IMG/VR virus record: IMGVR_UViG_3300045240_000091 | Location: 1-47,717 of that record | Length of the DNA stretch: 47,717 nucleotides | Reading direction: 5' to 3' (one strand) | From: a virus | Shown: in pieces, positions 9,338 to 41,976 of the stretch | Layout of the letters: the number at the start of each line of letters is the position of its first letter | How positions within the stretch are numbered: the stretch's first letter is position 1 | Translations under genes and position numbers: made by a program | The notes under the pieces: model-generated | What the model was told of the DNA's origin: nothing | Seen by the model: only the letters and a program-made list of their open reading frames with translations | Databases searched by the model: none

Positions 9338-11833
9338 TTAATGCGTCGGCCCAGTCAATCGACCCATGCCCGGCGTCGGCGTCGCCGGTCCTGACGCTGG
9401 ACCTGGCGTCGGCGGCGGAAAACTACCGCCGGGGCGCGGGTTCTGCGGCGGGTTCTGCTCGCCAGCCGGCCCCTGCATCTGCGGCGATTTCGGCGTCGCC
9501 CCAGCAGACGGCGTCGCCACCTGGCCGACGCCAGGCGGTCCGCCAGGCCCGCGCGCCATGGTGTTCATCGCCACGATCGACGGCAGCGGCGACTTGAACG
9601 CTTGGGTGAGATCAAGCTTGTCGTCGAGACGGTGCAAGAGATCGCGAGCGAGAAACTCCGGGTCGATGCCGGGAATCTGCATCACCAGCGGATAGATCTT
9701 CTGGGCGTTGGCGATCTCTTGCGCCTGGTTCGGGTTGCCCGAGCTGCCGGCCTCGATCTCCAGCCAAACCTCTTCCGCGATCTGCTGCCGGGTCAGATCC
9801 GGCCAGACCGCACCAGGCCCGACGATCCGCTTCACCGTCGCTTCGTTGACGTTGGAGAACAAGAGCTGGCCGCCGTACTTGGCGAGATGGGTCAGGAGAT
9901 CGTCGAGGTCGTCGACATTCGAGTCGTTGGTGGTGGTGCGCGAGGACTCAGCAATCTGCGATTGGGTCGCGGTGTCCGAATTGGTCGGCCCCATATTCGC
10001 TTCTTGGAAGCCAACCACCCGCAGCGTGTCGTCGAAATAGGGCGCAACATCGTAGAGCGCCGGATTGATTTCCGGCCCGGTGAACGCTTGCAAGAGGTCG
10101 TCAACCTTCTGCCCAGGCTGCAGCCCATTCAATTCGAGGATGGCGTTCGAGGGATGCGATTCGAGCTTCTCGACATCCTCCGCATCGAGCGCGCCGGCGC
10201 TGACCACCGTCTTCGGCCGCGCTGCGCGACGGTGCTCGCGCATGCCTTGCCGAGCGGTGTTGTAGTCGAGCTGCATGTCCTTCATCAGCCGCACGTCGGA
10301 CGGCGGGAAGATATCGTCCTCGTGGTCTGTCTCATTGAAGGTCAGGGTGAACCAGGGCCAGAAACGCTCAAGCGGCGTGTCGGGCGCGGCCGGCTCGCGC
10401 AAGAAATCGACGTAACCGTCGCAGACCAGGTAAACCAATCCGTCCTTGCGGTTGTAAATCTCCCAGATGCAGCAACATTGCTTGTCGTCGCCGGTGCCCT
10501 TTTCCTTGTCGTTGGGACCGAGCTGCATCAATCCGCTGGCGCGCGCGTCGGCGCTTAACCCCCCGTCCGGTCGGCTGTAGGAAACGTAAGACTTGCCGAC
10601 GTCGATGCTGTAGATTTCCTTCACTTCGTTGGGGCTGAGAACGTATTCCTGCGCCACCCAGTCGGAGCCGAGAAAGCCGCGCAGGTGAATGCACTTGGTG
10701 TCGGGGATGATCGAGAACGAACTCGGGTAATCATAGGTCAGCCCCTCGTGGGCGATGAATTCCTGCTCGTTCTGCAGGTCCAGGATCATCAGGCGCAGTT
10801 GCTCCGCTTCGGCTGAATCCGGGTCGCTCTCTTGATCGGCGATATCGGCCGCCAAGCGTTCCAAGGTGCCGAGGCGCTCGTTGATGTCGCTGAGCTTGGC
10901 GATCACATCCGGGCGCTTCTCCATCACCCTTTCAAAACCGAGCTTGACATAGGCCACGCCGACCGTCAGCGCGCGTCGCACTGTCATCTTCATCAATTGC
11001 TTGAACGGGTGGAGCTGCTGAGAAACATTGTAAGCGTAGAGCAACTCCAACGTTTTCGCGATCTTATCGAGCAGGTCCGTCTGCTGCTTGACCTGGCTGG
11101 CGTCCTGAATGATCGCCATGCCCTGCTGCATCATCTGCGGCAGCATCGGGTTGGGCGACGGCGCGCCTGGAGGCCCACCACCCAACCCCGGAGGCATGCC
11201 AGGAGGCGCGCCAGGAGGCCCAAGAGGCGCTCCCATGCCCGGCGGAGCCCCAGGAGGCGGCATAGCCGGCCCAGGCGGTCCTGGAGGCCCTCCAGGCAGC
11301 GGAGGCGGCCCAGCGACCGCGCCAGCGCCTGGAGCGCCTGGAATCGGCGGTTGACCAATCGACGCGCCGGCCAGTTGGCCGCTCTGCAGCGCCATCTGAC
11401 CGGCTTCCTGGATCGCCTGCAAACTCTGCTCGGTGCCGTCCCACACCGTGTTGAGGATCATCTCGCGCCGACGCGCGACCGCCTTCGGATTGCGCGCGTA
11501 GAGGAACGACACCCGCTGCGTCACCTCGCGCAGGGTGATGTTGGCGACGTAGCGCTTCTCTTTCGGGTTCTTCGACCATTGCTTGCCAAGGCAAAAATCC
11601 TGGTCCTCCTTCATCCGTTCGAAGGCCGGCTTCCAGTGCTTCTTGGCGTGCTTGACCTCCGCGCCCCAGGCTTTGACAAGCGCTTTGCGTTGCTGCGGCG
11701 GGTCCGGCCGCTCGCGCTCGATCATCTTGGCGTCGGCTTCGCCCGTCTGCAGGATCTGCGCGCCCGAGACGCCCTGCGGGGTGCCGAACAGCGCCTGCAC
11801 CACTGCGTCGTTGGGGTCTTGGGGGCCAGGCAT
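9338..11833 (-). CDS. Portal protein with collagen-like insert
   Basis: The ATG at 11833 overlaps the upstream stop (TGATG); the codon before it is GTG and is probably not the start. The 831-aa protein has the portal pattern: KHWKPAFERMKEDQDFCLGK near the start, RYVANITLREVTQRVSFLYA, then LDKIAKTLELLYAYNVSQQL and DYPSSFSIIPDTKCIHLRGF, with a long C-terminal helical region. It is larger than the usual 500-750 aa. Residues about 160-229 are an extra Pro/Gly-rich stretch with Gly-Pro-Pro-type triplets (11147-11356). The C-terminal 80 residues are also Pro/Gly-rich. It forms the dodecameric DNA gate at one capsid vertex. Confidence 0.92.
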   Translation of the reverse strand: MPGPQDPNDAVVQALFGTPQGVSGAQILQTGEADAKMIERERPDPPQQRKALVKAWGAEVKHAKKHWKPAFERMKEDQDFCLGKQWSKNPKEKRYVANITLREVTQRVSFLYARNPKAVARRREMILNTVWDGTEQSLQAIQEAGQMALQSGQLAGASIGQPPIPGAPGAGAVAGPPPLPGGPPGPPGPAMPPPGAPPGMGAPLGPPGAPPGMPPGLGGGPPGAPSPNPMLPQMMQQGMAIIQDASQVKQQTDLLDKIAKTLELLYAYNVSQQLHPFKQLMKMTVRRALTVGVAYVKLGFERVMEKRPDVIAKLSDINERLGTLERLAADIADQESDPDSAEAEQLRLMILDLQNEQEFIAHEGLTYDYPSSFSIIPDTKCIHLRGFLGSDWVAQEYVLSPNEVKEIYSIDVGKSYVSYSRPDGGLSADARASGLMQLGPNDKEKGTGDDKQCCCIWEIYNRKDGLVYLVCDGYVDFLREPAAPDTPLERFWPWFTLTFNETDHEDDIFPPSDVRLMKDMQLDYNTARQGMREHRRAARPKTVVSAGALDAEDVEKLESHPSNAILELNGLQPGQKVDDLLQAFTGPEINPALYDVAPYFDDTLRVVGFQEANMGPTNSDTATQSQIAESSRTTTNDSNVDDLDDLLTHLAKYGGQLLFSNVNEATVKRIVGPGAVWPDLTRQQIAEEVWLEIEAGSSGNPNQAQEIANAQKIYPLVMQIPGIDPEFLARDLLHRLDDKLDLTQAFKSPLPSIVAMNTMARGPGGPPGVGQVATPSAGATPKSPQMQGPAGEQNPPQNPRPGGSFPPPTPGPASGPATPTPGMGRLTGPTH
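11147..11356 (-). repeat. Collagen-like Pro/Gly coding stretch inside the portal gene
   Basis: About 70 codons encode repeated GAP, GPP, PPG and MPPG units. The plus strand shows repeated GGAGGCCC/GGAGGCGC-type words. It interrupts the portal between an N-terminal helical part and the helix NPMLPQMMQQGMAIIQDASQ. Confidence 0.8.
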
Positions 11834-12000
11834 CACCGATCCATTTCATCGAACCAGGCGCGAAGCGTTTCCCGTTCGCCGGCGTCAGGAATATCAGCAA
11901 CCCATTGACAGGTCAGACAGCGTTTGCGGACCTCGCCAAGAGCATCGAACACGACAGCTCCGCAGTCTTCGCAGATGAAAGTCGGACCCTCGTCAGGCAT
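11833..12000 (-). CDS. Small zinc-ribbon protein
   Basis: The ATG at 12000 overlaps the terminase stop (TGATG). The 55-aa protein MPDEGPTFICEDCGAVVF has CxxC at residues 10-13 and a second CxxC at 29-32 (CLTC), a four-Cys zinc-binding knuckle, then an acidic amphipathic end. It is wedged between the terminase and portal genes. It may assist packaging or protein contacts at the portal, but nothing in the sequence proves this. Confidence 0.8.
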   Translation of the reverse strand: MPDEGPTFICEDCGAVVFDALGEVRKRCLTCQWVADIPDAGERETLRAWFDEMDR

Positions 12001-13565
12001 CACCAGCCATCCATCGCGGCGCGCGCTTCCCGTTCGGCGCGCTTCGAATTCTCCTTCACCCAACCGAGGGTGAATTCCTTCGGACCCTCGTCACGCGCCT
12101 TCGGCTTCCCCCGCGCCGGAATCTGCTTCATCAGCCCGAGCCCGATCAGCGACAGCGTATCGACGAAGTCATCAAAACCAGAATGGGGGAATTTTAGCAA
12201 TTGGTCGCGCGCGTCAGCGAACCAGCGGGCGAAGCGCGGAAAGTAGACCCGGCCCATGCTCATGCGAGCGGCGATCGATTGCGCGCGGGCCTGCTTGTCG
12301 GCAACCGGGGCGATCTCGTCGATCGAGCAGAACACCCGTTTCTCGAGCATGCGCTTGCGCAGGAAAGGCCCGATCGATTTCGAAATCGAGCCCTTCTCGC
12401 CCCACCACAGCATCGGCCGATATTTCGCCATCAGGTTGATGATGGCGTCGATCGACATGTCGGACGGCAGGCGCGACCAAATGAGATCCGGCATGATCCA
12501 AATGTTGTCGTTCTCGTCGACCCCAACCACCATATGACAGCTCTTGTCGTTCTCCTGCTTAGTCGCCACCGCAAAATCGGATGCACCGTAATAACGGAGC
12601 GAATCCGGATGCGGCAGGTCGGACATCTTGTTGTACATGCGAATGTGGTCGGTCTTGAAGAACGAGCCTTCCGCCGGCGTCGGCCGACCCTGGTAGAGGG
12701 CAGTGAAGCCGCGCGCGTCGGCGCGGCGCTGGTCGAGCAAAAACGCGGTCCCGAACCGCGACGGCCAGAGCGGCGCGTCAAGCGGCCGGCCGAGCGGGTC
12801 ATCTTCTTCGGCGAGCGCCGGCAGATTGATAATGCTCCAGGTCGCCGCCTCCTCCTCGTTGTAATAGGGATTGGTCGGATCAGTGTGGCGACCGATGATG
12901 TCGTCCTCGTTCCAGCGCGTGGCGATGATCACCAGCGCCGCATCCTGGGTCATCATCCGATAGCGCAGGACGTTGTTGTACCAGGCCCACAAGGCTTCGC
13001 GCACGATCGGCGAGTCGGCTTCCTTGCGGTTCTTGACCGGATCGTCGAGGATGTTGATGTCGCCGCCGCGGCCAGTCAGCGTGCCGCCGACGCCGACGAA
13101 AAACAAGTCTCCGCCATCGACAATGCGCAACCGATCGTTGGCCGCGCCGCCGTAGCGCAGCTCGAGTTTCGGAAAGACGTGCTTATAGAGCGGCGACTGC
13201 ATCGTCGTCTTGACGACGCCGCCGATGTCCTGGGCGAACTTGTCGTTGTAGGTGGCGAAGACGATCGACTTGCGCGGATTGCGGCCGACCGCCCAGGTCG
13301 GGAACAGCATCGAGGCGAGCTTGGTCTTGCCATGCCGCGGCGGGCACGAGATCATCAGCCGCTTGATCCGGCCAGCCTCGACCTCCTCCAGCGCCGCCCC
13401 AATCACCCGGTGGTGACGCGCCACTTCGTAAGCCGAGCGGTTAGGGTCGACCCGGTGGTCCGGGTCGGGGCTCATGTAGCGCGCGAACGGAATGAGGCTC
13501 GCGCGCGATTTGAGGATCTCCTTCTTCCGTTCGAGAAGAAGAAGCCGGCGATCGGCGTTGTTCAC
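12000..13565 (-). CDS. terL: Terminase large subunit
   Basis: The start is probably GTG at 13565, overlapping the upstream stop (GTGA); GTG at 13580 is an alternative. The 521-aa protein has an N-terminal ATPase: Walker A-like SCPPRHGKT at residues 73-81, Walker B with catalytic acid NILDDP at 171-176, and an ATR coupling motif (IIATRWNEDD) near 214. The C-terminal nuclease starts at YYGASDFAVAT (Asp 330) and has acidic residues in HSGFDDFVDTL near the end. This is the motor that cuts and packages DNA through the portal. The small subunit is not recognised with certainty. Confidence 0.95.
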   Translation of the reverse strand: MNNADRRLLLLERKKEILKSRASLIPFARYMSPDPDHRVDPNRSAYEVARHHRVIGAALEEVEAGRIKRLMISCPPRHGKTKLASMLFPTWAVGRNPRKSIVFATYNDKFAQDIGGVVKTTMQSPLYKHVFPKLELRYGGAANDRLRIVDGGDLFFVGVGGTLTGRGGDINILDDPVKNRKEADSPIVREALWAWYNNVLRYRMMTQDAALVIIATRWNEDDIIGRHTDPTNPYYNEEEAATWSIINLPALAEEDDPLGRPLDAPLWPSRFGTAFLLDQRRADARGFTALYQGRPTPAEGSFFKTDHIRMYNKMSDLPHPDSLRYYGASDFAVATKQENDKSCHMVVGVDENDNIWIMPDLIWSRLPSDMSIDAIINLMAKYRPMLWWGEKGSISKSIGPFLRKRMLEKRVFCSIDEIAPVADKQARAQSIAARMSMGRVYFPRFARWFADARDQLLKFPHSGFDDFVDTLSLIGLGLMKQIPARGKPKARDEGPKEFTLGWVKENSKRAEREARAAMDGW

Positions 13566-13981
13566 TGCCCATTGCCCCACGACCCTAGAGGCATCGGCAA
13601 AGTCCGGGCGCGCTGAACATCCTGATCCAGAAAATCATGCATCTGCTGATAACGCGCCTCCGCTTCGTCAGTGCTTCCGTAGGACGGGAAGTTCTGGATG
13701 CCCGCTTGCTGCGCCTGCTGAAGCGCCTGATCAGGCGGCAGGATGCGCCCGCCCCAAACTGTCGGCAGGTTGTAAACACGGTCGCCAATATTGGTGCTCA
13801 TCTGGCGCAGGGTTGAACGACTGCCATTGAAGTTCGTCACACCACCAGGGCCAAGCAGATTCTGAAGATGTATCTGATAGAGGTAATTCTCCTGCGGCGT
13901 GAGATTCAACGAATCGATCGTCGCAGGAGGTTGAGCAATCTGAGACAGAGTGCTCGCAAGGTCAGGCATAGCCGTCGCCAT
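13562..13981 (-). CDS. Small virion-associated domain protein
   Basis: The protein has 139 aa from ATG at 13981, or 135 aa from ATG at 13969; neither has a clear SD. The C-terminal half DRVYNLPTVWGGRILPPDQA followed by GIQNFPSYGSTDEAEARYQQ and MHDFLDQD matches a module I have seen at the ends of phage structural and lysozyme-bearing proteins ('NIPTVW.G...FPSF.S.EEA..R...MH'). Its function is unknown. It lies just before the terminase, where a small terminase subunit could sit, but it does not look like one. Confidence 0.7.
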   Translation of the reverse strand: MATAMPDLASTLSQIAQPPATIDSLNLTPQENYLYQIHLQNLLGPGGVTNFNGSRSTLRQMSTNIGDRVYNLPTVWGGRILPPDQALQQAQQAGIQNFPSYGSTDEAEARYQQMHDFLDQDVQRARTLPMPLGSWGNGQ

Positions 13982-15359: not shown

Positions 15360-15968
15360 TTAGCGCCAACGACCCTTCGGTTCCGGGGTTGGCGGCAATC
15401 CTTGGTCTGGGTAAGTATCGTAAGCTTTCACATCCCAAGGCTCATTCGGCTTCTTCACCGCCACAACCATCTTGTCGGCGTATGCCGGGGGAACTTCCGG
15501 CAGAGGCGGTTGAATTTCTTCGGGCGGGACGGGAAGCCCCTGGTCGGGATGTCCCGGCGACGGCCAAATCCCCGGAGGCTGGCCGGGCAGACCCTGGTCG
15601 GGATACATCGGAGGCCCGCCCCAAATGCCCGGCGGGCTGCCTCCTACCGGCGGATAGTAGATCGGGTGCTCGGGCGTTCCACCAACGCTGTTCGGCGGCA
15701 GAACGATCGGATGTGACGGATGACCCGGAGGCATGGGCGGCGTGTAGATCGGATGCTCGGGCGTGCCGCTGATCGAGCCGGGCGGCAAGGCAATCGGATG
15801 CGACGGGTGACCGGGACTGGGCCAGACGCCGACGCCGCCCGGAGGCAAGCCCTGATCGGGGTATGGGGGAGCACCACCCCAAATACCCGGCGGCCGACCA
15901 GGCAGGCCCTGATCGGGCTGGCCACCGCTGCTCAACGGGGTGATCAATGCAAGATAAGGCTGCGTCAT
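15360..15968 (-). CDS. Pro-rich tandem-repeat phage protein
   Basis: The ATG at 15968 (MTQPYLALITPLSS) has a strong AAGGAGG SD at about 5-nt spacing and gives 202 aa. An in-frame ATG at 16106, 1 bp after the upstream stop, would add 46 residues (MATFVWDAAVQWPPPANILL...) and cannot be excluded; it would remove a 139-bp gap. The body repeats PDQGLP..PPGIW and GHPSHPI.LPP.S..GTPEHPIY units, each several times. The product is probably an extended, unstructured spacer. Similar repeat proteins occur near tail genes of alphaproteobacterial phages; the function is unknown. Confidence 0.7.
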   Translation of the reverse strand: MTQPYLALITPLSSGGQPDQGLPGRPPGIWGGAPPYPDQGLPPGGVGVWPSPGHPSHPIALPPGSISGTPEHPIYTPPMPPGHPSHPIVLPPNSVGGTPEHPIYYPPVGGSPPGIWGGPPMYPDQGLPGQPPGIWPSPGHPDQGLPVPPEEIQPPLPEVPPAYADKMVVAVKKPNEPWDVKAYDTYPDQGLPPTPEPKGRWR

Positions 15969-16107
15969 GCTTTCCTCCTTAGTTTCGCCCCGACGATCGC
16001 GCCGCGACGACAGTAAAACGCCGCCAGGAGCGACGACGTCGTAGTTCAGCAAGATATTGGCCGGCGGCGGCCACTGCACTGCAGCATCCCAAACAAATGT
16101 CGCCATT

Positions 16108-16359
16108 TCATCCACTCAGAACAGACAGCATACCGACACGTCCAAACAGGCCGGCGCATTCAGCCAGCCTCCACAAGAACAACAGGATGAGAATGGCAAC
16201 GACGCCGCCGATGACGATTTGAATGATATTCCAATAGGGGCCGGAGGTAAGGCTAGCGAAAATATCGCCCACCAGGACGCGAAGAAGCGCCAGGACGACC
16301 AGCACGACAATAACGAAGATCGCGACCTGAAAAATCGTGGCGATTCCAAAACCACACAT
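16108..16359 (-). CDS. Two-transmembrane small protein (holin candidate)
   Basis: The 83-aa protein has two strongly hydrophobic segments, IFQVAIFVIVVLVVLALLRV (about residues 9-28) and IIQIVIGGVVAILILLFLWR (about 45-64), with a short polar loop between. GAGGTGA lies 5 nt before the ATG at 16359. Size and topology fit a class II holin. It is followed upstream by a secreted Cys protein and a lipoprotein, so the three could form a lysis or envelope cassette. The cell-wall hydrolases are 20 kb away along the circle, so this remains a suggestion. Confidence 0.7.
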   Translation of the reverse strand: MCGFGIATIFQVAIFVIVVLVVLALLRVLVGDIFASLTSGPYWNIIQIVIGGVVAILILLFLWRLAECAGLFGRVGMLSVLSG

Positions 16360-23448: not shown

Positions 23449-23667
23449 TTAGACCCGGCCAAGCTTGGTGATCTCCCTGTCGATGTCCTCGACCGAGAGG
23501 CGCTCGGGGTCCAGGTCGTCGGCCCTATCCTCTTGATCTCGTTGGTCTTTCGACCGCGCGCCGATCGCGCCGACCAGCTCCAGCGCGGTGCGGACCGCCG
23601 CGGCGCGGACGTTGGCGGGCACGCCCGGTGCAATTATCAGAAGCTCAAGCGCAGCTTCCGCTTTCAA
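23449..23667 (-). CDS. Small helical protein, translationally coupled
   Basis: The frame overlaps the upstream gene. The simplest start is TTG at 23667, which overlaps the upstream TGA (TTGA) and gives 72 aa: MKAEAALELLIIAPGVPANV, then a helix AAAVRTALELVGAIGA and an acidic end DDLDPERLSVEDIDREITKL. No SD is visible, so reinitiation after the upstream stop is assumed. In-frame TTGs further up (23673, about 23752) are possible. It might be a small terminase-like or DNA-binding partner of the upstream protein; this is a guess. Confidence 0.5.
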   Translation of the reverse strand: MKAEAALELLIIAPGVPANVRAAAVRTALELVGAIGARSKDQRDQEDRADDLDPERLSVEDIDREITKLGRV

Positions 23668-24170
23668 ACGCAAACGCGAATAGATTTTGTTTCGCGTTGA
23701 TTCAATTGACGAATTAGGCTCAGGTAGACCGCTGGACCGCTGATCCAAGCCTTCGCCAATTTCATTCTCGTCCAGCCGTCCGCCTTCAGGTACGTCGGTA
23801 ACCGCGTCAGCTCGACCGGTATGACGGGCGATCGGCCCTCGACCATTGCCGCACGATACTCCGCGGCTCTTGCTGCCGACCTTCCGGTCTTTAGCAGCCT
23901 GCCCTCTCGCGCCCATTGCTTGAACCCTCCATGTGCTCCGCAAACCTTCATGCCCTTAAACGCCAGCATGCCGCATGGCGTCCCGTCGCGCTTGACGGCT
24001 GAGCACTTTCGGTGGTTAACTCGCCCAGGTTTGAAATACGTCTGCTTGGCCGCCGCAAGAAAAGCCGGCGGGGCTGTCTTCCTTCCGCCCCACGGTTTGA
24101 CCCGCTTCTGCATCACGCGGCGGGTCTTCGAAGCCCGCCAGGTTTCACGGGTGAAGAATTCATCCGACAT
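23664..24170 (-). CDS. HGG-motif Cys/His phage protein
   Basis: The ATG at 24170 (MSDEFFTRETWRASKTRRVM) has AGGAGG 9 nt upstream and gives 168 aa. Residues about 52-80 hold KCSAVKRDGTPCGMLAFKGM followed by KVCGAHGGFKQW. This C-x8-C-x9-C-x2-H arrangement ending in HGG is a common phage and prophage motif, presumably zinc-binding. A basic helix follows. Such proteins often sit near packaging or DNA-modifying genes; their role is unproven. The gene lies directly downstream of the AT-rich block, which probably holds its promoter. Confidence 0.72.
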   Translation of the reverse strand: MSDEFFTRETWRASKTRRVMQKRVKPWGGRKTAPPAFLAAAKQTYFKPGRVNHRKCSAVKRDGTPCGMLAFKGMKVCGAHGGFKQWAREGRLLKTGRSAARAAEYRAAMVEGRSPVIPVELTRLPTYLKADGWTRMKLAKAWISGPAVYLSLIRQLNQRETKSIRVCV

Positions 24171-24241
24171 CGACCAAAACCTCCTCATATACACAGATAC
24201 AGCACACACACGCTTTTCCGTTTTCTCTGCCTGACGCCCCT

Positions 24242-24269
24242 CGCGCGCGCACGCGTACGCGCGTACGCG
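24242..24269. other. 28-bp perfect alternating pyrimidine/purine run
   Basis: From 24242 to 24269 every base alternates pyrimidine and purine, mostly CG with two TA steps and one CA step (CGCGTACGCGCGTACGCG at its core). This is a classic Z-DNA-prone sequence. It lies between the HGG gene and the AT-rich block. Confidence 0.75.
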
Positions 24270-24277
24270 AGGGTGTA

Positions 24278-24350
24278 CATAGAGAAAATATAATATTATC
24301 TTATTATATTATATTATGTATATTAGTATTACTATCTCTATAACCTATTG
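24278..24350. promoter_or_regulatory. AT-rich block, origin or promoter candidate
   Basis: About 70 bases are almost only A and T, with repeated TATAAT/ATTATA words on both strands, in an otherwise GC-rich genome. The region 24237-24500 has no gene. It could be an unwinding element of a replication origin, or a strong promoter for the minus-strand HGG gene at 24170. The lower-GC stretch continues to about 24420. Confidence 0.6.
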
Positions 24351-24471
24351 AACCTAAAAACCAATTTGACCATCACCCAAATTTTAACTGTTAATCATTC
24401 TCTACATTCTGGTTTGTTATTTTACAGCGGGAGAGCGAGCATTCGGGGGTTAAAACGCTTCGCCCTCCCTA

Positions 24472-24498
24472 GATTGACCGAATGCGAATCGGTCAATC
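24472..24498 (-). terminator. 10-bp hairpin after the PEP-CTERM gene
   Basis: GATTGACCGA (24472-24481) and TCGGTCAATC (24489-24498) form a perfect stem with a 7-nt loop, 11 bp past the stop of the PEP-CTERM gene. No T-run follows on the minus strand. Position suggests a terminator that isolates this gene. Confidence 0.6.
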
Positions 24499-24509: not shown

Positions 24510-25229
24510 TTAAATTGCTAAGTGTGCTGACCGTGCCTTGCGCATGCCAAAGAGAGACATAAAACCAAATCCCAATGCCAACATGGCCCATATGCTGGGC
24601 TCGGGAACGCCGCTCTCCATCGCTTGGTTGAAGCCCGTGATGCTGCCGCCGGAGCGCAGCACCAGTGCTGCTCCCTCTGTCATCGAGAAGGGTGCTGCAG
24701 CATCGAACGCCGTGACCCGCGACCCAGCGAAGCTGTCCGGGTCGGTCAGCGCATGCCCCGCCACGCTCTCCAACAGCGTCCCTGGCGTGTTCGAGGAATT
24801 CGCCCCTTGCCGATCGAGGGGATCGGCGAAGAAGCTTAAGCGGCTGTCGGGCGCGCCGACATTGGCGTTGAACGTCAGCGAGCCCGAATTGTTGATGAAG
24901 GAGACGGGTGCGGTGAAGCCGGTGTCGGACGCCAAGAGCGTGACCGTGATCGGAATCCCAAGCGTGTCCTCGATGTTCGCGCTCGAAAGCTGCAGGGCAT
25001 CGACCTTGCCGAACGTCGACTGCGCCAGCGTGAGCTGGACGAACGCGCCCCCGACCGTCTGGTCGATCGTCAACAGGTTGTTCGCGCCGCCGCTCACGTC
25101 GCAGGAGAGCTGACCGTCGAAGCAGGTGAACGTCGAGGCCCCGACGCCGATCGAGAGCTGCAGCCTCGCTTCGGCTCCGCCGGCCATCAGCGCCAGCGCG
25201 CTGCTTAAAACCAAGAATCGCTTGAGCAT
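24510..25229 (-). CDS. PEP-CTERM exported protein (cargo gene)
   Basis: The 239-aa protein has a signal peptide (MLKRFLVLSSALALMAGGAE-A) and a beta-rich middle with two Cys (36 and 43). Its C-terminal sorting signal is V-P-E-P-S at 208-212, hydrophobic IWAMLALGFGFMSLFG to about 228, then basic RKAR. This is the PEP-CTERM tripartite signal recognised by exosortase, a bacterial export/surface system usually tied to exopolysaccharide. No exosortase is in the window, so the host would supply it. The gene stands alone: a hairpin follows it and a divergent gene lies upstream. GAGGGA lies about 9 nt before the ATG. It is probably expressed in lysogens and alters the host surface (inference). Confidence 0.88.
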   Translation of the reverse strand: MLKRFLVLSSALALMAGGAEARLQLSIGVGASTFTCFDGQLSCDVSGGANNLLTIDQTVGGAFVQLTLAQSTFGKVDALQLSSANIEDTLGIPITVTLLASDTGFTAPVSFINNSGSLTFNANVGAPDSRLSFFADPLDRQGANSSNTPGTLLESVAGHALTDPDSFAGSRVTAFDAAAPFSMTEGAALVLRSGGSITGFNQAMESGVPEPSIWAMLALGFGFMSLFGMRKARSAHLAI

Positions 25230-25272
25230 GGTGATGTGTCCCTCATCGAGCCTGTTGGGTGTCGGGTCGACT

Positions 25273-25296
25273 CTCCGCCCGACCCTCCGCCCGACC
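25273..25296. repeat. 12-bp tandem repeat between divergent genes
   Basis: CTCCGCCCGACC occurs twice in tandem at 25273-25284 and 25285-25296, in the ~100-bp gap between the PEP-CTERM gene and the plus-strand gene at 25329. An inverted GTCGGG precedes it at about 25262. It may be an operator for one or both genes. Confidence 0.5.
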
Positions 25297-25328
25297 CATC
25301 TTGCACATATCAGGCCAGGATGTCAGTC

Positions 25329-25562
25329 ATGTCGCACATGAGCCGGTCCAGGGCGTATGAAAAAGCGGCTTTGGCCCAGATGCTGATTGCGCTGGTCGAG
25401 GCCGGCCAGCCAGAGGTCATGCTCGCCTGCCTGAGGCGGGTGGTCGAGCACAAGGCTTTTGGCGTCACCACTGGCTTGATCGGGGTCGAGGAGGCCGATC
25501 GCTGGCTGGTGCTGGCCAATGCGCTCAGGGCGGCCGAGGAAACCCTGAAGAAAGCCGCATGA
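25329..25562 (+). CDS. Small helical protein
   Basis: The ATG at 25329 follows AGGA at 8-nt spacing; ATGs at 25320 and 25338 are in frame. The 77-aa product MSHMSRSRAYEKAALAQMLI continues as helices (EAGQPEVMLACLRRVVEHKA, VEEADRWLVLANALRAAEET). It has an amphipathic, all-alpha look and no known motif. It is a single gene on the plus strand, facing the end of the repressor operon 38 bp away. It could be a small regulator. Confidence 0.6.
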   Translation: MSHMSRSRAYEKAALAQMLIALVEAGQPEVMLACLRRVVEHKAFGVTTGLIGVEEADRWLVLANALRAAEETLKKAA

Positions 25563-26621: not shown

Positions 26622-26851
26622 CGCGCTGGCGCTAGGCCGGGTGTCAAGCGCTGCACGCCATTGATCGCCCTGATCAAGTCGAACGTCTCGAACCCGCTCT
26701 CCAGCCATACGTCGGCCAGGATCGAGGCCATCACCAGCACCACCGCCGGCCCGGCGTCGTCCCACGCGTCCCCCAAGCCCGGCAGCACATGCACTTGCAC
26801 CGCGGAATAGGCCCGATCGATTTCCTCCTTGGAGCTATTGTTATTTGTCAT
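26618..26851 (-). CDS. Small protein after the repressor
   Basis: The ATG at 26851 has AAGGA at 6-nt spacing and overlaps the repressor gene by 11 bp. The 77-aa protein MTNNNSSKEEIDRAYSAVQV has a central hydrophobic helix (AGPAVVLVMASILADVWLES) and ends RLTPGLAPAR. It might be membrane-associated. No family is recognised. Confidence 0.65.
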   Translation of the reverse strand: MTNNNSSKEEIDRAYSAVQVHVLPGLGDAWDDAGPAVVLVMASILADVWLESGFETFDLIRAINGVQRLTPGLAPAR

Positions 26852-27338
26852 CGCTATTCCTTTGTGCTCTAGGTTGTTTACCGGCCCCCGCTAGTTTCTG
26901 GTCGGCCTTGATGAAAAGACCGATGATCTCATGCGCGATATCATCCGGCAGGTAGCGCGCCGCCTGGAGGAACGACACGCCGACCTCACCGTGCGGCTTG
27001 GTGATCGACCAGTCGGCGGCGACGCTGTGCGCCGCCTTCAATTCGGCTTCCGGGGCTAGTTCGCTGACCTTGAGATGCTTGGCCAGTTTCTCCAGGTTCT
27101 CGCGGTCGGGAAAATTCTTGCCCGCGACCCACACTGAAATCCGGTCGCGGCCCTTGGCGACGTCCTTGCCTTCGGAACTGATATGCCGGCCCCAGATCTT
27201 GGCGGCGAGATCCGACTGTGACAGCTCCCGCTCCGACATCAATTGTCTCAGCCGCTTGGCGAAGTTGATGTCTCTCGCGCGTTCGATTGGCAGCCGCGCC
27301 CCTGCGACGCGCGGTAGTTGGTTGACGAATTTGGTCAT
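26841..27338 (-). CDS. XRE-type HTH protein, candidate phage repressor
   Basis: The 165-aa protein has an XRE/Cro-type HTH at about residues 26-92: FAKRLRQLMSERELSQSDLA, AAKIWGR, then ISVWVAGKNFPDRENLEKLA. A charged loop of about 15 residues (RHISSEGKDVAKGRD) between the second and third helices is longer than usual. The C-terminal part (VGVSFLQAARYLPDDIAHEI) is helical, with no LexA/CI peptidase motif, so control would not be by RecA-driven self-cleavage. It is divergent from the early operon and heads a five-gene operon, the standard place for the lysogeny repressor. Confidence 0.75.
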   Translation of the reverse strand: MTKFVNQLPRVAGARLPIERARDINFAKRLRQLMSERELSQSDLAAKIWGRHISSEGKDVAKGRDRISVWVAGKNFPDRENLEKLAKHLKVSELAPEAELKAAHSVAADWSITKPHGEVGVSFLQAARYLPDDIAHEIIGLFIKADQKLAGAGKQPRAQRNSDDK

Positions 27339-40747: not shown

Positions 40748-40769
40748 GGTGGATAGGATAGGTGGATAG
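40748..40769. repeat. GGTGGATAG pair, 13-bp step, at the integrase SD
   Basis: GGTGGATAG occurs at 40748-40756 and 40761-40769, 13 bp apart. The second copy supplies the AGGTGG SD of the integrase ATG at 40771. A protein bound here would block integrase translation or transcription. Confidence 0.7.
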
Positions 40770-40770
40770 A

Positions 40771-41976
40771 ATGTTGAAACCCTCTGACGTGATGAAGCTG
40801 CCGGAAGGCCGGCACTGTGACGGCGACTACCTCTATCTCGCGGTCGTAGGCGCGAGCCGATCGTGGGTCGTGCGCACCCCGATGATCAACGGCAAGCGCC
40901 GCGAAATCGGACTCGGCTCGGCCGCCAAGGTTTCGCTGGCGCTGGCCCGCAAGGGCCGCGACGCCCTCATCGAACAATTGCGCAACGGCGTCGACCCCGT
41001 CGCCGAGCGGCAGGAGGCCAAGGAGGCCGCGGCCAAGCGCAAGACCTTCGCCGAGGCGGCCGAGGCGGTGATCGAGAAGAACCGCGCCGGCTGGAAGACC
41101 TCGCTTGAGGGGCGCTGCTCGACGCTCGACCAATGGCGTCGCGACGTCGAGATCACCTGCAAGCCGATCGCGCGCAAGCTCCTCGACGAGATCACCATCG
41201 CCGACATCAAGGGCGTGCTGCAGCCGTACTGGGACCGCGGGCAGCTTGACAGCGCTTCAAGCTTGCGTAAGCGGATCGAGGCGGTGCTCGACTACGCAAC
41301 CGCGCATGGCTGGCGCGCCGGCGACAATCCGGCGTCATGGAACATCTTTAAGCATCTGTGGCCGGGTGAGAAGCCCCAGGACGTGCATCACGCCGCGTTG
41401 CCCTGGCGCGACGCGCCGGAGTTCCTGCAGCGCTTGCGCCAGTCGGATGCGACCAGCGCTCGCCTGCTTGAGTTCATCATGCTGACCGCCGTCCGCTCGA
41501 ACGAGGCGCGCGGCGCGACCTGGTCGGAGATCGATCTCATGGCCCGCGTGTGGACGATCCCGGCAGCGCGGATGAAGATGCACCGCGACCATGACGTGCC
41601 GCTCAGCGAGCCGGCGGTGGCGCTCCTGCGCAGCCTGGAGAAGACCGGCGAGTTTGTGTTCGTTGGCGGGCGCGGCGCAGACAAGGCGAAGGGCAAGCCG
41701 ATGCGCAACGCCAGCCTGCATGCGCTGATGAAGCGCTCGGCCGGCGAGGCGACCACGCATGGGTTCCGCTCTTCGTTCCGCGACTGGTGCGGCGAGACTG
41801 GCGTCGATCGCGAATTGTCCGAGCGCTGCATCGCCCACAAGGTCGGCAGCGACGCCGAGAACGCTTACGCCCGCTCCAGCCTGATCGCCCGCAGGCGGCC
41901 GGTCATGGAAGCGTGGGGCGCGTTTGTCGACGGCGCTCGCGACAACGTCGTGGCGTTCGTGCGTCAGGTGGCGTGA
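40771..41976 (+). CDS. int: Tyrosine integrase, P4 type
   Basis: The ATG at 40771 has AGGTGG at 5-nt spacing; an upstream GTG at 40762 is less likely. The 401-aa protein has an N-terminal DUF4102-like arm (KLPEGRHCDGDYLYLAVVGA, GKRREIGLGSAAKVSLALAR), a core-binding domain and a catalytic domain. The active site residues are Arg 242 (TAVRSNEARG), His 330-x-x-Arg 333 (HGFRSSFRDW), His 356 and Tyr 366 (AENAYARSS). It integrates the phage into the host chromosome and marks it as temperate. The att site is not identified. Confidence 0.95.
   Translation: MLKPSDVMKLPEGRHCDGDYLYLAVVGASRSWVVRTPMINGKRREIGLGSAAKVSLALARKGRDALIEQLRNGVDPVAERQEAKEAAAKRKTFAEAAEAVIEKNRAGWKTSLEGRCSTLDQWRRDVEITCKPIARKLLDEITIADIKGVLQPYWDRGQLDSASSLRKRIEAVLDYATAHGWRAGDNPASWNIFKHLWPGEKPQDVHHAALPWRDAPEFLQRLRQSDATSARLLEFIMLTAVRSNEARGATWSEIDLMARVWTIPAARMKMHRDHDVPLSEPAVALLRSLEKTGEFVFVGGRGADKAKGKPMRNASLHALMKRSAGEATTHGFRSSFRDWCGETGVDRELSERCIAHKVGSDAENAYARSSLIARRRPVMEAWGAFVDGARDNVVAFVRQVA

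Follow-up and report, generated by a model that had tools for sequence, protein, structure and literature searches.

The window analysed here is a stretch of 47,717 nucleotides of viral DNA (IMG/VR record IMGVR_UViG_3300045240_000091). The gene of interest lies at positions 24510–25229 on the minus strand, opens with ATG and encodes a protein of 239 amino acids, whose translation begins MLKRFLVLSSALALMAGGAEA followed by RLQ and later contains VPEPSIWAMLALGFGFMSLFGMRKARSAHLAI. Residues 1–21 (25167–25229, minus strand) are predicted to form a signal peptide with a basic n-region, a hydrophobic core and an A-x-A cleavage motif, as judged from the sequence and from a family alignment in which A19 and A21 are nearly invariant. 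Residues 22–207 (24609–25166, minus strand) constitute an ectodomain which, on the basis of the alignment and an AlphaFold2 model, is predicted to be a jelly-roll beta-sandwich. This region is rich in serine, threonine and asparagine (27% in total), has a net charge of −10 and contains two nearly invariant cysteines (C36 and C43). The remaining residues, 208–239 (24513–24608, minus strand), form a tripartite PEP-CTERM signal comprising VPEPSIWAM, a hydrophobic helix and an RKAR basic cluster, which is apparent both from HMMs and from the model. The signal peptide, VPEPS motif, membrane helix and basic RKAR end described in the original prediction are all borne out in the translated frame, and the PEP-CTERM assignment itself is upheld by matches above curated cut-offs to PF07589 (22.0 bits against a gathering score of 20.7) and TIGR02595 (19 bits against 16). 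With the PEPxxWA-CTERM model NF035944 the protein scores 23 bits, which is under the cut-off of 35, and it was therefore not assigned to that subfamily, unlike several of its relatives, which do pass. Among stop-to-stop open reading frames of at least 100 amino acids, PEPxxW falls within the last 45 residues in 1 of 207 from the window, compared with 1 of 19,844 from codon-shuffled versions of the window. This rarity, together with the conservation of the family elsewhere, excludes chance as the source of the C-terminus.

The genes surrounding this one are those of a phage, with matches to capsid protein, portal, terminase, tail fibre, repressor, helicase, exonuclease, DNA polymerase, primase, integrase and endolysin. 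Domain matches identify a tyrosine integrase typical of temperate phages (40762–41976, plus strand) and an HTH repressor-like gene marking the putative immunity region (26841–27338, minus strand), and on the basis of these two genes the carrier can be classed as temperate by its gene content. The temperate phage setting proposed originally is confirmed, with terminase, portal, capsid protein, HTH repressor and integrase all present in the window. The PEP-CTERM gene is on the same strand as the repressor and some 1.6 kb beyond it, in a repressor-side region that a prophage could express. Directly upstream is a small divergent gene (25236–25562, plus strand) whose true start is probably internal and which occupies the same place in a sister contig, L031 (numbers of this form denote loci on other viral contigs). 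Downstream is a gene (23664–24209, minus strand) with an HGGxSTG-like domain that scores 26.4 bits, below the cut-off of 29, and which is conserved in L057 and L032.

Between the PEP-CTERM gene and this downstream gene are several elements, two of them hairpins on the minus strand. A perfect 10-bp inverted repeat (24472–24498) begins 12 nt past the stop codon, and fold analysis and comparison with the sister phage L057 place a second hairpin, with the loop TAACCCCC, at 24429–24469. Taken together, the two give a fold z of −6.3, and at the position of the second hairpin L057 has another stem sequence but nearly the same loop. Beyond them is an AT-rich block (24280–24420; 22.7% G+C), and an AT-rich stretch is present there in L057 too. 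The hairpin and the AT-rich block that were first described as belonging to the PEP-CTERM gene are thus both present, but the block contains two promoter-like matches on the minus strand, on which basis it is more likely to serve the downstream gene as a promoter region than to be part of the cargo. A long G+C-rich palindrome (CCCTCGCGCGCGCACG...; 24238–24273) adjoins the block and is possibly a replication origin or a regulatory site.

A search for related phages, as suggested by the original prediction, found relatives of the protein on at least 33 IMG/VR viral contigs from approximately 20 metagenomes, with 57–81% identity (a close search of the viral contigs yielded 15 loci and a profile search 33). 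All of the members that were aligned at full length share the arrangement of signal peptide, ectodomain and PEP-CTERM signal, with PEA in place of PEP in two, and the PEPxxWA-CTERM model is matched by 28 of 29 relatives (best E = 8e-12). No relative was detected in two scans of bacterial genomes covering 84,980 species, nor was the family found in the plasmids searched or, by tblastn, in the INPHARED phages, to which the closest named phages, Mae-Yong1326-1 and RHph_N65, belong. It matched no PHROGs family, and a sequence search of the PDB returned no convincing relative. Environmental bacteria commonly encode PEP-CTERM proteins, and one might argue that the carrier contigs are pieces of bacterial chromosome misfiled as viral, the gene being an ordinary host PEP-CTERM gene; some loci from a broader motif scan (see below) indeed lie on short or possibly host-flanked contigs. 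We regard this as highly improbable, given that the window gene is flanked on both sides by phage genes, that many members share their contig with a terminase and that around 85,000 species genomes contain no homologue.

The carriers are phages of several kinds. Their terminases fall into at least four types, of which type A comprises the window (12000–13580, minus strand; identified by sequence match and used for the typing), L057 (92% identical) and L032 (74%). Type B is represented by L023, which is about 27% identical to A, and type C by L022 and L024, while type D is found in L017, L033, L158, L125, L044, L035, L030, L029, L041, L025 and L040. In blastp comparisons types A, C and D show no clear mutual similarity beyond one weak match of 23% between C and D. 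L031 was assigned to type A, and several other contigs to type D, from synteny or from portal genes in common; L036 was placed in type B by shared flanking genes, which is a weaker assignment. The tree of the PEP-CTERM proteins splits type A and conflicts with phage type (AU p = 0.0097), the protein of L032 grouping among those of type D phages.

The position of the gene varies as well. In type A it keeps a single locus, although it is inverted in L032. In type D it is found at the junction between terminase and portal in several arrangements: antisense between the two genes (L026, L029, L035 and L040), with the terminase facing away (L008 and L025), co-directional (L027, L039 and L041), or beyond the portal in one direction (L030, L125 and L002) or the other (L038 and L044). 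In L017, L018 and L019 it instead adjoins the integrase, the two genes converging; the neighbourhood of the integrase is a classic place for lysogenic cargo. This varying position and orientation, together with movement between phage lineages, identifies the gene by genomic comparison as a phage moron outside the core genome, in agreement with the earlier description of it as cargo. Its frequent location between terminase and portal in type D phages might alternatively point to a structural, assembly or packaging-associated role in the virion. That reading is very unlikely to be correct: the protein carries a cleavable signal peptide and a PEP-CTERM signal, the gene frequently lies on the opposite strand from the structural genes (L026, L029, L035 and L040), its position is different in type A and there is no PHROG match. 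The antisense copies led us to reject the terminase/portal neighbourhood as a clue to virion function. The window also encodes, at 15360–16115 (minus strand), a proline-rich protein with PDQGLP, PSHPI and PPGIWGG repeats, and similar repeat proteins adjoin the PEP-CTERM gene in L002, L012 and L014, their homology being uncertain owing to low complexity.

The window and L057 are 92% identical in terminase and 81% in signal peptide but only 56% in ectodomain, whereas the window and L030 are 83% identical in ectodomain and 43% in signal peptide; among pairs in general, the identities of signal peptide and ectodomain vary independently. The contrast between these two pairs points to a mosaic exchange of ectodomains among phages. 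The ectodomain is under strong purifying selection, with dN/dS of approximately 0.1–0.3 in every pair tested except window/L057 (0.5). In all of the pairs dN lies well below dS, the values being, for example, 0.05 and 0.42 for L017/L019, 0.13 and 0.60 for L026/L029, 0.17 and 1.08 for window/L030 and 0.40 and 0.81 for window/L057, the weakest case. At the two ends of the protein, the motif residues V-P-E and W-A-M and the alanines of the signal peptide hardly vary, although the remainder of the C-terminus drifts (mean pairwise identity is only 52% for the C-terminus and 44% for the signal peptide), which is the pattern that recognition by exosortase and signal peptidase would predict. The original observation is confirmed and its interpretation supported in part. 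The sequence comparisons yield a stronger finding, which a single window could not reveal: a widespread and laterally exchanged phage family of predicted PEP-CTERM surface proteins.

The AlphaFold2 model, built from 29 sequences (pLDDT 81, pTM 0.73), contains twelve strands followed by a single C-terminal helix formed by residues 211–238. Its best structural matches are SGBP-B (7kwc; Z = 9.1) and Bd1399 (Z = 9.0), followed by a glucosyltransferase module (Z = 8.2), CBM61 (Z = 8.2) and a K2 tailspike domain (Z = 8.0), and many other CBM and adhesin modules are among the matches of the ectodomain. Z scores of 8–9 are middling, and common beta-sandwiches can attain them by chance; for this reason glycan binding by the modelled ectodomain is a weak suggestion to be treated as a lead only.

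Phage proteins that alter the cell surface are known, and act as lipoproteins, as membrane proteins or through glycosyltransferases. The gene studied here probably represents a different arrangement, in which a mobile phage cargo gene specifies a surface protein that is sorted by the exosortase of the host. No exosortase gene was found in 27 phage records, the window included. As judged from its sequence, the protein would be exported by the Sec machinery and cut by signal peptidase after A-x-A. If the accepted PEP-CTERM model applies, the C-terminal signal would then retain it in the inner membrane until the host exosortase cleaves it and hands the ectodomain to the outer surface or to exopolysaccharide. 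There the jelly-roll ectodomain would sit in the glycan layer of the host, where it may bind glycan and would change the surface of the cell, whether infected or lysogenic. The best reading of the sequence data is therefore that the cargo protein would alter the surface or matrix of its host, and the likely benefit to the phage would be either that competing phages are kept out or that aggregation and matrix are altered. Superinfection exclusion and matrix modification are accordingly the leading candidate uses.

The original prediction favoured a lysogenic conversion factor that changes the host surface, might block further phage attachment and limits the host to bacteria with an exosortase; the data are consistent with each of these as a candidate property. 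In its specific form, superinfection exclusion would mean that the ectodomain, once displayed, hides the glycan receptor of tail spikes or competes for it, such that the lysogen or infected cell resists related phages. Surface-anchored phage proteins that do this job exist (Ltp; PMC3952083), tailspike and glycan-binding domains are among the best structural matches, the gene is common to phages which possibly compete for the same hosts, and the window copy lies in the same orientation close behind the repressor. Against this, strong purifying selection on a highly conserved ectodomain is easier to reconcile with a fixed ligand than with an arms race, and we consider exclusion a tentative explanation that falls short of an even chance. 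Slightly less probable, and on balance rather unlikely, is that the protein is fitness cargo for the host, a component of the exopolysaccharide or matrix which improves aggregation, attachment or biofilm formation by the lysogen and plays no direct anti-phage role. The CBM- and adhesin-like fold of the ectodomain model would fit such a role, a chromosomal PEP-CTERM protein promotes flocs (PMC9850573) and in bacteria of soil and sediment the PEP-CTERM system is associated with exopolysaccharide (PMC1569441). Host benefit would, however, be less useful to the 44–45 kb carriers in which no integrase was detected (G024, G016 and G037). An integrase was found in only 7 of 23 records, many of which are fragments, so that some carriers may be lytic and a purely lysogenic conversion is a weaker proposition.

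Comparison with known systems places the family closest to the PEP-CTERM/exosortase (EpsH) sorting system (Haft 2006, PMC1569441), with which it shares the signal peptide, an ectodomain rich in serine, threonine and asparagine, the PEP motif, the membrane helix and the basic cluster. It differs in being encoded by phages that lack exosortase genes, in having no sigma-54 motif that we could find upstream and in its absence from the bacterial genomes searched. Like the lipoprotein Ltp of superinfection exclusion (PMC3952083), the protein is temperate phage cargo with a predicted endpoint at the cell surface, but it would be sorted by its PEP-CTERM signal and a host exosortase rather than by a lipoprotein signal, and no sequence relation between the two is claimed. 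The floc protein PepA, a PEP-CTERM protein that binds exopolysaccharide into flocs (PMC9850573), is likewise a sorted extracellular protein, as predicted here, and five relatives match the floc_PepA model, with no evidence of an ectodomain in common; PepA is chromosomal and RpoN-dependent, unlike the phage-borne family. TIGR03118 proteins, which also have a C-terminal exosortase-interaction domain and occur on viral contigs, were counted among candidates for horizontal transfer in hot-spring viruses (PMC11003980). They belong to another protein family and, as far as the available text of that study goes, appear as an annotation count only, with no analysis of mobility or context. The open-licence literature on PEP-CTERM or exosortase together with phage or prophage yielded no description of phage-encoded PEP-CTERM cargo.

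The family is not the only one of its kind. The original description of a lone cargo gene holds for the window but not for L021, L022, L023, L024 and L036, each of which carries another, distinct PEP-CTERM gene immediately next to the first or close to it. Scanning the viral contigs for VPEPxxWAM gave at least 122 matches, some on short or possibly host-flanked contigs; among the matches listed, 116 lie within 45 amino acids of the C-terminus and 103 have a signal-peptide-like N-terminus. A second conserved phage PEP-CTERM family (ATLQIEVFDNG...) emerged, whose 14 members used are 26–29% identical to the window protein, and for which the structure model was too poor to use (pLDDT 45). These members (L059, L073, L077, L090, L095, L100, L111–L113, L121, L140, L141, L143 and L162) are 77–96% identical to L113, and in L100, L111, L113, L140 and L143 the gene follows one ending STPLPGS, perhaps a portal gene. 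The occurrence of the same gene in many otherwise unrelated viruses, against none among the roughly 85,000 bacterial genomes searched, suggests a shared and undescribed way of altering the host surface. Whether the phages of exosortase-bearing environmental bacteria draw on a large pool of PEP-CTERM genes, shared and reshuffled among them by recombination, with several ectodomain families and sometimes two genes per phage, which amounts to a hidden class of surface conversion via the host exosortase with the family studied here missing from sequenced chromosomes, is in our judgement evenly balanced. If phage cargo does borrow the exosortase, this would connect the biology of phages with the exopolysaccharide sorting system found in bacteria of soil and sediment. 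The exosortase would become a possible host-range factor for the carriers, and the role of PEP-CTERM proteins at the surface would gain a testable handle. The family could further be used to mark phages that infect exosortase-bearing hosts.

Leads to the host come from the core phage genes. The window terminase and portal (9338–11836) are nearest to those of the Microcystis phage Mae-Yong1326-1 (51–52%), with 42–45% identity to the Rhizobium phage RHph_N65. Microcystis and Rhizobium are an odd pair of hosts, and one of the assignments may reflect a non-axenic culture. The type D terminase is nearest to that of an Ochrobactrum phage and the integrase points to mixed proteobacteria; neither tRNA genes nor Rfam families were found in the window. 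These matches amount at most to a lean towards a host among the Alphaproteobacteria.

Transcription of the PEP-CTERM gene from signals of its own is plausible from the flanking sequence. The −35-like word TGWCA, chosen after viewing the sequences, occurs at −100 to −51 in 13 of 29 members compared with 2.2 in shuffles, and the −10 boxes are weak. A sigma-54 promoter, such as has been associated with chromosomal PEP-CTERM genes, was considered and rejected, there being no site upstream of the family members. Downstream, 42 hairpins were counted in the 500 nt following 128 PEP-CTERM genes, compared with 17 in 100.5 kb of background that was not restricted to gene ends; these hairpins are strong but without a clear T run.

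Hairpins whose loop is rich in C (mostly AACCCCC) but whose stems are unrelated recur just 3′ of PEP-CTERM genes on the same strand, and in many cases GCTG or TAGGGG comes next. Of 16 such hairpins located by a strict scan, 5 fell within the 3% of sequence lying 3′ of PEP-CTERM genes (P ~1e-4, for a loop chosen post hoc), and their stems failed to align with MAFFT. Pairing of the CCCCC loop with the ribosome-binding site of the PEP-CTERM gene, judged by eye only, was inconsistent across members and was discarded. The sites noted are 24429–24469 (minus strand) in the window, approximately 10035 (minus strand) in L057, 579 in L016, 6694 in L014, 4043 in L027, 9243 in L034, 7031 in L041, 11542 in L022 and 10144 (minus strand) in L121.
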